This document shows, in pieces, positions 7,652 to 27,061 of a DNA stretch of 64,000 nt. The first letter of the stretch is position 1. Each line of letters opens with the position of its first letter. A program made the translations under genes and the position numbers. Below the pieces are notes generated by a model, which was not told the DNA's origin, made no database searches, and saw only the letters and a program-made list of their open reading frames with translations. Origin of the DNA: Kaistia granuli DSM 23481 (GTDB taxonomy: Bacteria > Pseudomonadota > Alphaproteobacteria > Rhizobiales > Kaistiaceae); the NCBI RefSeq assembly GCF_000380505.1, contig NZ_AQYH01000008.1:434001-498000 (forward strand). Reading direction: 5' to 3'.

Positions 7652-8287
7652 TCAGGCGCTCTTGCGCGCCTCGAGCCGCAGCCCGCCATTCTCGACGATG
7701 AAGTCGATGACGGCGTCGAGCCCCTTGCCGCGCGAGAGATCGGTGAAGCCGAACGGCCGGATCCCGCGCATCCGCGCCGCGTCCTTCTGCATGATGTCGA
7801 GATCGACGTTCACATAGGGCGCGAGGTCGCTCTTGTTGATGACGAGGAAGTCGGAGCGGGTGATGCCCGGCCCGCCCTTGCGCGGGATTTCCTCGCCCTG
7901 GCAGACCGAGATCACATAGAGCGTCAGATCGGCGAGATCCGGCGAGAAGGTCGCGGCCAGATTGTCGCCGCCCGATTCGATGAAGACGATATCAAGGCCC
8001 GGGATCCTGCGGTTCATCTCGGCGATCGCCTGGAGATTGATCGAGGCATCCTCGCGGATCGCCGTGTGCGGGCAACCGCCCGTCTCGACGCCCATGATGC
8101 GGTCTTCCGGCAGTGCCTGCCGGCGCGCCAGGATCAGCGCGTCTTCCTGGGTGTAGATGTCGTTGGTAATGACCGCGATCGAGAACTCGTCGCGCATCGC
8201 CTTGCAGAGCTTTTCGGTCAGCGTCGTCTTGCCGGAGCCGACGGGGCCGCCGATGCCGACGCGAAGGGGTCCGTTTTTCGATGTCAT
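7652..8287 (-). CDS. ureG: Urease accessory GTPase UreG
   Basis: A 211-residue SIMIBI GTPase that drives nickel insertion into apo-urease with UreD, UreF and UreE. P-loop [10 protein letters not shown] (about residues 14-23), the family motif [16 protein letters not shown] containing the Cys-Pro-His nickel site (near residues 70-85), FIESGGDN and the guanine-specificity motif NKSDLAPYV. Length matches the family. It lies 48 bases after ureE on the same strand, so ureE-ureG form one unit divergent from ureDABC. No other accessory gene follows. Confidence 0.97.
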
Positions 8288-8335
8288 GAGCGCTCTGGCC
8301 TTCTCTAGCAGGATCGGTCCGGTCGACGGGCCGGC

Positions 8336-8944
8336 TCAGTCGTGGCGGTGGCCGCCGGGACCATGATCGTGATGATGACCATGGTCGTGGTCATGGTCAT
8401 GGTGGTCATGGTCGTGGCTATGCCCATCATGACCGTGGCTATGCCCGGCATGTGCATCGTGGGAATGGTTGCCGTGATCATGGCCGTGCGAATGCTCGCC
8501 ATGGCCAGAATAGGCGCCGCGCACCGGATTGAACTGCGCCACGATCTCCTTGACCCGCGCGCCCAGCCCTTCCAGCATCGCCTTGATGACGTGATCGCGC
8601 AGGATGAGGATGCGGGTCGGCTCGATCGCCGCCGCCAGATGCCGGTTGCCGATATGCCAGCCGAGTTCCATCAGATGCACCGGATCCTGGCCGAAGATCT
8701 CGTAGAGCGGCTCGTAGGCCGCCGCGATCCCGATCTCGCCGCCACCCTCGACGACGAGGCGATCGCCGGCCTCCAGCACGACGGGCTCGGGCAAATCGAC
8801 CAGCACCTTGCGGCCGTCGACCAGCTCGATGGCGCGCCGGCGCAGATGCCGTTCGTCATGCGGCAGCACGGCACGGCCGAGCGGCTGGGCCTCGTCCTCG
8901 GCAGCGATTTCCGATGCCCGCCTGACGGCGATTGCCCTCAACAT
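8336..8944 (-). CDS. ureE: Urease accessory nickel metallochaperone UreE with His-rich tail
   Basis: A 202-residue UreE, a homodimeric nickel chaperone that hands Ni(II) to UreG. The N-terminal peptide-binding domain (about 1-75) and the metal-binding domain with [11 protein letters not shown] (about 93-103; the conserved His of the GNRH motif) are intact. From about residue 147 to the end the protein is a His/Asp/Gly tail with about 25 His in 56 residues, like the tail of Klebsiella UreE that stores several Ni(II) ions. The tail's reverse complement gives the repetitive atgg/catg pattern seen in the DNA at 8340-8500. Confidence 0.96.
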
Positions 8945-9257
8945 TCCACTTCCCCGCTCTTCAACTCAAGGCTCGGCGACATACCATCGCCGTCACCGCC
9001 TATAGCGCATTTTCGCAGGTCGCAAGACGAATGCGATGGGGCACGATCTTCCCTTCTTTGGGCGACAAAAGAAAGCGGCCATGCCAATTTCGGGACGGAG
9101 CGCCAAGTCGCGAGACCGTGCGCATAGCGTGCGGCTCCATAAGTGCGACGTGCCGGATTTTACCGTTGCGAACGGGCCGTTCACCGTGTGATAGGTCAAA
9201 CTCACAACCGTCTCGTGATCGGCTCGAAGAGTGGTCCAGACCGGGAGCACGTATAGA
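8945..9257. other. Divergent intergenic region between ureE and ureD
   Basis: About 313 bases separate the ureE start from the preferred ureD start. I see no additional ORF with a convincing ribosome-binding site and no hairpin. I looked for a NikR box (GTATGA/TCATAC) and for a sigma-54 GG-N10-GC core and found neither. It must hold at least the ureDABC and ureEG promoters. Confidence 0.5.
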
Positions 9258-25054: not shown

Positions 25055-25644
25055 GGCGCCCCGCCTTTGCCGGATCGCCGGCTTTTCAAGAAGGCGAGCA
25101 GTCCGAACAGGCCGACGATATAGCCGACACCGCCGACGATATCCTGCAGCCGCAGCGACGATTGCAGCGCATCGACCTGCTCGGCGAGCGGCGCGATCTT
25201 GCGCGCCACGGCGAGTTCGATCTCGGCGAGCGGCACGGTCGCAGCCGGGCTGAGGGCAGCGGACGGCGCACCCGCCGCGGACGGCTGTGGCTTGGACGAT
25301 GCCGCTGCCGGCCCGGATCCGGCGATGGTGAAGCGGGCGATATGCCCATCCTGCGCATCGACGGTGACGACGATGTCGCCGGTGCCGGAAGCCGGCAACG
25401 CAAAGCGTCCGTCGGCGCCCGTCGTGCCGGAGGTAAGCACCTTGCCGGCATCATCGCGAAGGGTGACGGCGACGCCTGCGGCCGGGCCGCTGCCGACGAA
25501 ATAGGCCTCCCCCTCGATGCTGTCGCCGATGGCGGAGGCGAAGACCTTCAGCCGGTGCGCCGAGGCAGGCGCCGCCATCGCCGCGAGGATCGCGAGGGAC
25601 AGCAGAGCGTGGCACAGGCGCCGGCGGGCCTCAGGATACCGCAA
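25051..25644 (-). CDS. nikL: Nickel transporter accessory protein NikL
   Basis: A membrane-anchored periplasmic component of NikKMLQO importers. The TTG start at 25644 is chosen because GGGGAGG precedes it by 5 bases; this start overlaps nikM by 14 bases and gives a signal peptide ending APASA, so the mature protein starts HRLKVFA. Then comes a carboxypeptidase-regulatory-like beta domain (AGVAVTLRDDAGKVL, SGTTGADGRFALP), a Ser/Ala/Pro-rich linker, a helical segment and one TM helix near the C-terminus (IVGLFGLLAFL). About 197 residues. An ATG-initiated longer form from 25740 would read through most of nikM's end and is unlikely. Confidence 0.85.
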   Translation of the reverse strand: MRYPEARRRLCHALLSLAILAAMAAPASAHRLKVFASAIGDSIEGEAYFVGSGPAAGVAVTLRDDAGKVLTSGTTGADGRFALPASGTGDIVVTVDAQDGHIARFTIAGSGPAAASSKPQPSAAGAPSAALSPAATVPLAEIELAVARKIAPLAEQVDALQSSLRLQDIVGGVGYIVGLFGLLAFLKSRRSGKGGAP

Positions 25645-26266
25645 TCTTGCCTCCCCGCCGGTGCCGCGCCCACAGCATCTCCGGGCTGACGCGCGCGAGA
25701 AAGGCGCAGGCGAAGCCGGTGATGACGGCCTCGCCGACAAGCAGCGGGCCGTAGGAAATGAGCACGATCCGCGCCGAAATCGTATAGGCGGTGTCGCTCA
25801 GGGTGAGCACCAGCGCCACCATCACCGCCGTCGAGGCGACCGACAGCGCCGCCACGGCGGCGCCGACAAAGGCGGCGCGGCGCGGCGTCGCGTCGGCGAT
25901 CACAGGCGAAAAGAGGAACGCCCACAGAATGCCAGGCAGCGCGATGTTCATCGTGTTGACGCCGAGCGTCGTGACACCGCCGAAGCCGAAGAAGATCGCC
26001 TGCAGCACGAGGCCGACAAAGACGGCCGGCACGGCCGCCCAGCCGAGCACCAGCCCCATCAGACCGGAGAGCAGCAGATGCACGCTGGTCGGGCCGATCG
26101 AGACATTGATCAGGCTGGCGACGAAGAACAGCGCCGCCACGACGGCGACGCGGGGCAGGCTGTCCTCGTCGAGCCGCTTCAGCGCGATGCCGAGCGAAAC
26201 GGCCGTGACGACGGCGCCCCCGGCGAGGACCGGGATGGAAAGGATGCCGTCTGGAATATGGGCCAT
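25631..26266 (-). CDS. nikM: ECF nickel transporter S-component NikM (CbiM-like)
   Basis: A 211-residue substrate-binding membrane subunit. The family N-terminus MHIPDG appears as MAHIPDGIL: Met removal before Ala would leave Ala1-His2, which restores the His at position 2 that chelates nickel with the free amino terminus in NikM/CbiM. Further motifs: SVHLLLSGLMGLVLGWAAVP (His in the conserved SVHLL) and QAIFFGFGGVTTLGVNTMNI. Together with NikL and NikK this makes it a nickel rather than cobalt module (cobalt systems carry CbiN). Confidence 0.93.
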   Translation of the reverse strand: MAHIPDGILSIPVLAGGAVVTAVSLGIALKRLDEDSLPRVAVVAALFFVASLINVSIGPTSVHLLLSGLMGLVLGWAAVPAVFVGLVLQAIFFGFGGVTTLGVNTMNIALPGILWAFLFSPVIADATPRRAAFVGAAVAALSVASTAVMVALVLTLSDTAYTISARIVLISYGPLLVGEAVITGFACAFLARVSPEMLWARHRRGGKIAVS

Positions 26267-26293
26267 GTCGCGCCTCGCGCTTGCCGCCTGCCG

Positions 26294-27061
26294 CTATTTC
26301 ATGTCCACGGCCTGGACCCAGATCAGCCCGCCCAGCTCCACCGGCTTCGGCTTGCCTTCCGGATCGGGCAGTTCGTAGTCGGCGTCGACCAGCGCCGCGA
26401 AGCCCCACCAGCCGCCGCGCGGCAGCGCATAGTGGAACACGCCCTGGCCGTCCGCCTTGATCACCTGGGTGACGAAGGCGTCGGCCGGCGGCGCGACGGA
26501 ACCGTCATTCACCCACTCGACTTCGACCTCGGCGAAGGGCACGGGCTGGCCGTTGCGACGCACGACGCCGCTGAAGAGATTGCCCGTCCACAGGCCATAG
26601 GGCCGGACCAGCGGCTCGATCTCGACCGGCAGGCCGACGGCCCGGTCCCAGTCGGAGCCCCAGCCGAAAGCGTCGACCACGACCTTCGAATAGTGGATGA
26701 TCGACTTGCCCTCGGCCGGCTCCCAATAGGGCTTCGGCTCGACGAAGAAGGTGTAGTTTCCCGGCTTCGCCGGCTTGTAGCTCGCCTTCCAGGCGGTCTT
26801 GCCGTCGCGCGGCGCCTCGACGAGCGTGCCGAGCAGGTCCGTCTCGCCGGCCTCCGTGACGACGCCGAAACGGGTCGGCTTCGCCATTTCCATGGTCGGG
26901 CCGCGATCCATCGGATGGGTAAATACAAGATCGAGGACGAGTTCGCTGTCGCCTTCGCCGAAATTGTCGGTCGAGGGCAGGACTTCCTGGAAATGCGCGC
27001 TAGCCGAGGCCGCGGGAAGCAGAATGGCGACGGCGAGCGCCGCGATACAAAGCGTTCTCAA
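26294..27061 (-). CDS. nikK: Nickel transporter periplasmic subunit NikK (DUF4198)
   Basis: A secreted DUF4198 protein, the first gene of nikKMLQO. From the TTG at 27061 (GGGGA 8 bases upstream) the product begins MRTLCIAALAVAILLPAASASA, a signal peptide, and the mature chain starts HFQEVLPS. Later motifs: FTHPMDRGPTMEM, YTFFVEPKPYWEPAEGKSI, VEIEPLVRPYGLWTGNLFSG and a C-terminal beta domain (PFAEVEVEW, GVFHYALPRGGWWGFAAL). Length 255 residues. An ATG at 27097 is in frame but abuts the NikR operator and lacks a ribosome-binding site. Expected role: periplasmic nickel capture for NikM. Confidence 0.88.
   Translation of the reverse strand: MRTLCIAALAVAILLPAASASAHFQEVLPSTDNFGEGDSELVLDLVFTHPMDRGPTMEMAKPTRFGVVTEAGETDLLGTLVEAPRDGKTAWKASYKPAKPGNYTFFVEPKPYWEPAEGKSIIHYSKVVVDAFGWGSDWDRAVGLPVEIEPLVRPYGLWTGNLFSGVVRRNGQPVPFAEVEVEWVNDGSVAPPADAFVTQVIKADGQGVFHYALPRGGWWGFAALVDADYELPDPEGKPKPVELGGLIWVQAVDMK

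Follow-up and report, generated by a model that had tools for sequence, protein, structure and literature searches.

A conserved gene junction suggests that Kaistia makes the urease maturation factor UreF together with an MBS-like cation/proton antiporter arm

Urease gene clusters are usually viewed as combining the enzyme, its maturation genes, nickel uptake and urea uptake, and among the maturation factors UreF works with UreD and UreG. Here we describe a block of genes in Kaistia granuli DSM 23481, at positions 7652-27061 of a 64,000-nt stretch of its genome ("the window", to which all positions refer), in which ureF stands directly behind the genes for a putative cation/proton antiporter. 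The nearest precedent for the block comes from Brucella, a member of the same order as Kaistia. As described in the abstract of the Brucella study, the ure2 operon, ureABCEFGDT-nikKMLQO, brings urease genes together with a urea transporter and the energy-coupling factor (ECF) nickel importer NikKMLQO, and both transporters support urease activity (PMC2868824). The Kaistia block has the same combination, but in ure2 ureF is grouped with the other urease genes in a single operon, and the abstract makes no mention of an antiporter, DUF1576 or nikR (PMC2868824). Closer in urease type are divergent ureDABC(-UT)/ureEGF clusters in two genomes that we refer to as G093 (locus L143) and G376 (locus L144), with UreC at 92% and 91%. 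A gene for a UT-family urea channel lies beside the cluster in G093, as in the Kaistia block; unlike in Kaistia, the order in both genomes is ureE-ureG-ureF, with ureF directly after ureG, and the 20 kb read contain no antiporter.

Two described systems resemble the antiporter genes. With the membrane arm of the Pyrococcus furiosus MBS complex (PDB 6u8y), the Kaistia operon shares the subunit set, an MbhE+MbhF-type fusion and the presence of both H and H', as far as these are set out in the published accounts (PMC7684303, PMC8415708), as well as the Glu at the position of MbsH E219 (PMC7684303). It differs from the described MBS in having H and H' joined in one protein, in lacking redox subunits next to the arm, and in not conserving three of the named MBS residues, considered below. 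With the canonical Mrp antiporter MrpABCDEFG (CPA3), it shares homologous functional parts and, judging from the account in PMC7419157, a conserved Glu at the cation site. Unlike canonical Mrp, it has no MrpA with a C-terminal MbhD/E portion; MbhD is separate in Kaistia and the fusion partner of the MbhE part is MnhB. The operon and the region upstream of it comprise the following features, in their order along the minus strand.

21420..21544, no strand assigned: divergent nikR/mnhE region, putative promoter (GCAATCTAGAGT upstream of mnhE, alignment of 7 Kaistia)
20901..21419, minus strand: mnhE (GTG start at 21419, inferred from conservation; Pfam MNHE 1.2e-35 on a longer open reading frame (ORF))
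20648..20908, minus strand: mnhF (Pfam MrpF_PhaF)
20405..20647, minus strand: mbhD-like subunit, 80 aa (Pfam MbhD)
20036..20401, minus strand: mnhG (Pfam PhaG_MnhG_YufB)
19164..20039, minus strand: MbhE+MnhB fusion (MbsE-like), 291 aa (Pfam MbhE and MnhB)
18772..19146, minus strand: mnhC / mbsG-like subunit (Pfam Oxidored_q2 2.6e-21)
15680..18778, minus strand: fused double antiporter, 1032 aa, MbsH-like half followed by MbsH'-like half (Pfam Proton_antipo_M, 2 stretches; PDB 6u8y_H and 6u8y_X)
15643..15679, minus strand: 37-nt intergenic gap from antiporter stop to ureF start (read from the sequence)
14962..15642, minus strand: ureF, which closes the antiporter operon as its eighth gene (ATG at 15642; Pfam UreF 2e-39)

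The seven antiporter genes follow one another with intergenic gaps of -8 to +17 nt, and the stop codon of the last (15680-15682) lies 37 nt from the ureF start codon on the same strand, exactly where an earlier note on this sequence had placed it. The ureF product scores 135.7 bits against a Pfam curated cut-off of 23.3, and NCBIfam gave no match for it. No terminator-like site was predicted in the 37-nt gap, and a scan for sigma-70-like promoters, which is blind to other promoter types, predicted none across 7500-27400; a promoter and terminator between 15643 and 15680, which the note had named as evidence against its proposal, are thus both missing from the predictions. We compared start and stop codons, the former inferred, across all nine intact blocks that we found, six in Kaistia (the window included) and three in the genus of Chelatococcus reniformis. 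Measured to the first plausible ATG, the window has a gap of 37 nt and the five other Kaistia have gaps of 1, 1, 1, 2 and 2 nt, while the C. reniformis junction is a TGATG overlap and those of its two congeners (genomes G757 and G758) are ATGA overlaps. The window therefore has the loosest junction of the nine, and the other eight blocks have gaps of -4 to +2 nt. Near-zero or overlapping stop-start junctions typically mark a single mRNA with translational coupling, and gaps as short as those in the eight blocks leave no room for a terminator, which makes it likely that ureF and the antiporter genes share an mRNA and are translationally coupled. The co-transcription suggested in the note is therefore supported by the sequence, both by the kept junction and by these short gaps.

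The junction is also conserved: ureF lies directly behind the antiporter gene in 9/9 intact blocks, and because it is kept in all of them, the arrangement is more than chance. A tenth block, in another Kaistia (genome G021, locus L063), is cut by the end of its contig within the antiporter gene. The linkage in related genomes for which the earlier note had proposed to search therefore exists. Among 28 genomes of the family, the double antiporter is present at 88-89% identity in 7/14 Kaistia, the window included; in six of the seven ureF is directly next, and the seventh is the G021 fragment. The remaining 21 family genomes gave, among the matches listed, only partial antiporter matches of about 25-35% identity. 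All three genomes of the C. reniformis genus have the antiporter, and in all three ureF is next to it; the G757 and G758 antiporters are only 66-67% identical, yet ureF is linked to them. A scan of genome contigs gave 35 antiporter loci. In four of them ureF follows immediately (C. reniformis and three Kaistia from the count above), and two end within the antiporter gene (L063, that is G021, and L066). The other 29, which include loci from Paraburkholderia, Nitrobacter, Microvirga and Afipia as well as three distant partial matches, carry the antiporter without urease genes in the stretch read. In a sample of 397 genomes of the order, 17 have the antiporter at an E value of 1e-60 or better. 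Five of these are Kaistia, all linked; the 12 others have no ureF within 1.5 kb flanks, and eight of the 12, read over about 17-20 kb, gave no urease-gene matches. When ureF loci are taken as the starting point, 6/31 in the family (loci for 31 of 40 matches) and 5/30 in the order (loci for 30 of 90 matches) have Mrp genes within 1.5 kb, all of them in Kaistia.

Judged by Pfam matches, the operon encodes a predicted homologue of every subunit of the cation/proton arm: those of the MBS/MBH-type (group 3) arm, A, B, C, D, E(+F), G, H and H', are all present. Homologues of MrpB, C, D, E, F and G are likewise found in the one operon, the D-like one within the fusion protein. An MrpA with an antiporter N-terminus and an MbhD/MbhE-like C-terminus is not in the operon, the only long gene of which is the double antiporter. 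The closest solved relatives are MBS subunits 6u8y_H and 6u8y_X for the double antiporter, and 6cfw_D and 6u8y_D for the MbhD-like protein, and MbsE is described as an MbhE+MbhF-type fusion, like the 291-aa MbhE+MnhB gene (PMC8415708). By sequence, then, the operon is closer to an MBS-type antiporter arm than to canonical MrpABCDEFG; the "Mrp-type" operon of seven genes in the earlier note stands as a set of antiporter subunit homologues, but as an MBS-like one rather than a plain Mrp. At 11 ion-path residues that PMC7684303 names in subunits H, H' and D of MBS, we compared the proteins with solved subunits, and 8/11 are kept (sequence alignment, letters checked). Glu56 of the MbhD-like protein aligns with MbsD E58 and MbhD E69; E139, E220 and K388 of the fusion correspond to MbsH E138, E219 and K393; and its E570, K644, K675 and K818 correspond to MbsH' E128, K217, K248 and K399. 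The same fused cassette occurs in a Thiogranum metagenome-assembled genome (L060:10001-18271), where it is followed by NuoH-, NuoB-, NuoC- and NuoD-like genes and a ferredoxin/flavoprotein (by eye); together these look like a bacterial MBS-type respiratory complex.

We propose, with slightly more than even confidence, that mnhE-mnhF-mbhD-mnhG-mbhE/mnhB-mnhC-(H/H' fusion)-ureF forms a single eight-gene transcription unit that interlocks urease with the antiporter. In Kaistia the unit would probably be read from a promoter beside nikR, where the stretch before mnhE is invariant in 7/7 aligned Kaistia. In most copies, ribosomes finishing the antiporter gene would go on to translate ureF, such that the unit would yield a urease maturation factor along with a cation/proton antiporter arm of the MBS type that has no redox subunits next to it. 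Co-expression of urease maturation with the antiporter arm is, on the evidence of the gene order and the junctions, well supported. Nickel loading of urease would then be restricted to cells that produce the antiporter too. As urea hydrolysis makes the cytosol more alkaline and richer in ammonium, the antiporter would import protons and expel cations. The arrangement suggests that the cell makes UreF and the exchanger together, perhaps against the ammonia released by urease, and pH coupling of this kind may be the reason for the linkage. We also considered a NikR operator between nikR and mnhE; the known operator was not found there by eye, and only the invariant promoter-like stretch was seen.

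Several observations weigh against this proposal. The fusion departs from MBS at three of the 11 residues: the equivalent of MbsH K250, fusion residue 251, is Ala (and Ala, Ser or Thr in 13/13 aligned family members), Leu replaces MbsH H330, beside an alignment gap, and Leu also stands at the position of MbsH' H336. The first half of the fusion may lack a complete proton path. MnhC appears, by eye, to have Asp in place of the usual Glu. A second UreF match is present in all six block-bearing Kaistia and might offer a way around the interlock. Alternative later ATGs (gap +7 to +20) occur in 5/8 of the other copies, such that the start codons of ureF are not certain, and the sigma-70-type scan found no promoter before mnhE. 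Finally, the approximately unbiased (AU) test that rejects a single clade of the nine linked copies for the antiporter (p 0.00687) was post hoc: this test, like the other tree tests given here, followed inspection of the trees, which were quickly made and contain long branches. One linked clade is not rejected for ureF (p 0.159), ureG (p 0.0591) or ureD (p 0.107), and the UreC tree shows it without firm support.

Given that the linked antiporters do not form one clade, the linkage may have been gained twice, or be old and often lost, or the antiporter genes may have been replaced. The G757 and G758 antiporters branch outside a group that contains the unlinked copies of Paraburkholderia, Nitrobacter, Microvirga and Afipia, and the C. 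reniformis antiporter is placed inside Kaistia, a single clade of Kaistia alone being rejected (AU p 4.65e-5). The ureD tree also rejects Kaistia as one clade (p 0.0156); in the UT and DUF1576 trees C. reniformis is not nested within Kaistia. UreC of the block groups with those of C. reniformis, G093 and G376 (SH-like approximate likelihood ratio test (SH-aLRT) support 97), apart from other Kaistia, and from the gene order in G093 and G376 ureF directly behind ureG is probably the older state. It is conceivable, although we hold it with clearly less confidence than the interlock, that the junction is a fossil of gene order: an antiporter cassette, with DUF1576, would have entered an ordinary ureEGF operon at the point between ureG and ureF, and ureF would have stayed where it was since moving it costs urease, not from any mutual functional need. 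The clusters of G093 and G376 fit such an origin, as do the 29/35 loci at which the cassette occurs without urease genes in the stretch read, and C. reniformis has the predicted intermediate, ureG-DUF1576-antiporter-ureF on one strand. However, the nesting of the C. reniformis antiporter within Kaistia means that this intermediate may be derived, and the Kaistia-like order of G757 and G758, combined with a distant antiporter, needs a second event, repeated loss or in-place replacement; we therefore retain C. reniformis as an ancestral insertion state only as part of this rival. Attempts to use flanking genes as markers of an empty site were uninformative, since the two genes matched 7 and 6 of 14 Kaistia, with one block-less genome each. 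That the linkage is kept at 66-67% antiporter identity and outside a single clade favours selection over a single frozen accident.

The other alternatives concern the nature of the unit itself. That ureF is transcribed alone, its neighbourhood being no operon in this strain, seems very unlikely: the window has the longest gap of all and our promoter scan was limited to the sigma-70 type, but no promoter-like or terminator-like site is predicted in that gap, and in the eight other intact blocks the gap to the first plausible ATG is at most 2 nt. We consider it most unlikely that the seven membrane genes encode not an antiporter but the arm of a redox-driven, MBS-like ion pump with its redox subunits encoded elsewhere. 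The MBS identity of the closest solved relatives and the Nuo-like genes behind the Thiogranum cassette are in keeping with such a pump. On the other hand, genes for redox subunits J, K, L, M and N are absent from the window block, the only part of the Kaistia genome in which they were sought, and a comparison of 27 antiporter loci found antiporter subunits in 24-27 loci and no other shared family, the next commonest being present in nine. A more specific version of the interlock, which we regard as unlikely, is that the antiporter is a dedicated exhaust for urease, exchanging NH4+ (K+-like) for H+, with DUF1576 as a further urea/ammonia channel; the coupling of ureF to the antiporter would then mean that urease is never matured without its exhaust.

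Outside the antiporter operon, the block contains the following genes. The identities of ureA, ureB and ureC rest on ORF reading and alignment to the compared loci rather than on Pfam.

7652..8287, minus strand: ureG, urease GTPase (Pfam cobW/HypB/UreG 6.9e-38)
8336..8944, minus strand: ureE, nickel chaperone with a long His-rich tail (Pfam UreE_N and UreE_C; tail read from the sequence)
9231..10154, plus strand: ureD (from the first GTG; true start probably internal, ~9291; Pfam UreD 5.6e-60)
10180..10479, plus strand: ureA (ORF; 91-99% identity to relatives of the same urease type)
10489..10800, plus strand: ureB (ORF; conserved across the same relatives' loci)
10793..12505, plus strand: ureC (ORF; UreC tree)
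12585..13637, plus strand: urea channel, UT family (Pfam UT 9.4e-92, above cut-off)
13728..14771, plus strand: YkuD-type L,D-transpeptidase-like gene (Pfam YkuD 9e-26)
21545..22087, plus strand: nikR, with His-rich C-terminal tail (Pfam NikR_C 2.4e-27)
22084..23391, minus strand: DUF1576 membrane protein with two internal repeats (Pfam DUF1576 9.9e-108, 2 stretches)
23529..24284, minus strand: nikO, ECF ATPase (Pfam ABC_tran; named by cluster position)
24284..25054, minus strand: nikQ (Pfam CbiQ)
25051..25740, minus strand: nikL (NCBIfam NikL family 3e-49)
25631..26266, minus strand: nikM (Pfam CbiM 2.3e-52)
26294..27244, minus strand: nikK (Pfam DUF4198 5.2e-57)

The plus strand thus carries ureDABC, the urea channel gene, the YkuD-type gene and nikR, and the minus strand carries ureE and ureG at one end, the mnhE-to-ureF operon past the YkuD-type gene and, past nikR, nikKMLQO followed by DUF1576. 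The earlier note had described one continuous block of ureDABC, ureEG, a urea channel, ureF, the seven-gene operon, nikR and nikKMLQO; this gene content is borne out, but the YkuD-type gene and DUF1576 had been overlooked. The YkuD-type gene has the same position in six Kaistia blocks and no match within the three blocks of the C. reniformis genus. The urea channel scores 263.4 bits against NCBIfam urea_trans_yut, slightly below the cut-off of 274.6, and NCBIfam gave no match for the NikK-like DUF4198 protein. A strong terminator-like hairpin (14 pairs, T-rich tail) lies at 12530-12564, between ureC and the urea channel gene, which may therefore be transcribed less than ureDABC. The window genome has three UT matches overall and a second, diverged urease cluster (contig C20:1-12000; UreC 57%, UreF 26%), the contigs concerned being C18 and C20. 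In the C. reniformis block (locus L038, genome G756) no ureE was matched, and that genome has four UreE_N matches. A His/Asp-rich C-terminal tail is present in 7/7 Kaistia copies of NikR that were read, and resembles the tail of UreE from the same block.

Nickel import, which the earlier note had treated as an integral part of the linkage, does not hold that place, since nikKMLQO adjoins only 5/9 blocks (the window, K. terrae, K. defluvii, G018 and G023); parts of it are also present in fragment L063. None was seen beside the K. adipata block. All six Kaistia blocks contain nikR, and neither nikR nor nikKMLQO was seen in the stretches read of the three C. reniformis-genus genomes. DUF1576, by contrast with nikKMLQO, is beside the antiporter operon in 9/9 blocks: in the C. 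reniformis genus it is the block gene nearest mnhE (0.2-0.9 kb), and in six Kaistia it lies behind nikR, the only gene between it and the operon. It is present in 14/14 Kaistia and 0/14 other family genomes, and in the seven Kaistia without a block (L092-L098) DUF1576 and a UT gene are convergent neighbours in 7/7. In a sample of 398 genomes of the phylum it scored above cut-off in the window genome only, with two weak matches that are, by eye, DsbD-like proteins. We considered that DUF1576 might be a relative of the UT urea channels, because motifs are alike, but profile comparison was negative: hhalign gave a probability of 0.2 for DUF1576 against UT and at most 10.2 over 16 profile pairings, compared with 99.4 and 99.7 for internal-repeat controls. 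AlphaFold2 models of DUF1576 were weak, with predicted local distance difference test (pLDDT) scores of 56.9 for the full protein and 68.9 for the repeat. With these weak models, Foldseek gave no match at an E value of 0.001 or better; among the 50 matches listed for each, the full model reached its highest probability (0.54) with UT-B, and no UT appeared for the repeat. Sequence comparison of DUF1576 with solved structures gave no match, 18 pattern matches in viral contigs yielded none that was confirmed, and a full-text literature search for DUF1576 gave no paper. In two annotated Firmicute plasmid records with DUF1576, no urease gene is listed within 8 kb of it, and these records thus give no sign of a general role with urea; a third record, from Fusobacterium, is without annotation. 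ABC genes near DUF1576 in block-less Kaistia were considered as a urea ABC transporter, but in L093, the one locus read, they look by eye like cydDC, with cydAB alongside.

The earlier note knew of no description of this arrangement, and among the open-licence PMC papers listed in our literature searches no title or abstract start describes it. If the interlock is real, these cells would manage the alkali and ammonium load of urease at the level of enzyme maturation. From the genomic side, the linkage also offers a clue to what MBS-type antiporter arms do when they stand alone, and to the role of DUF1576.

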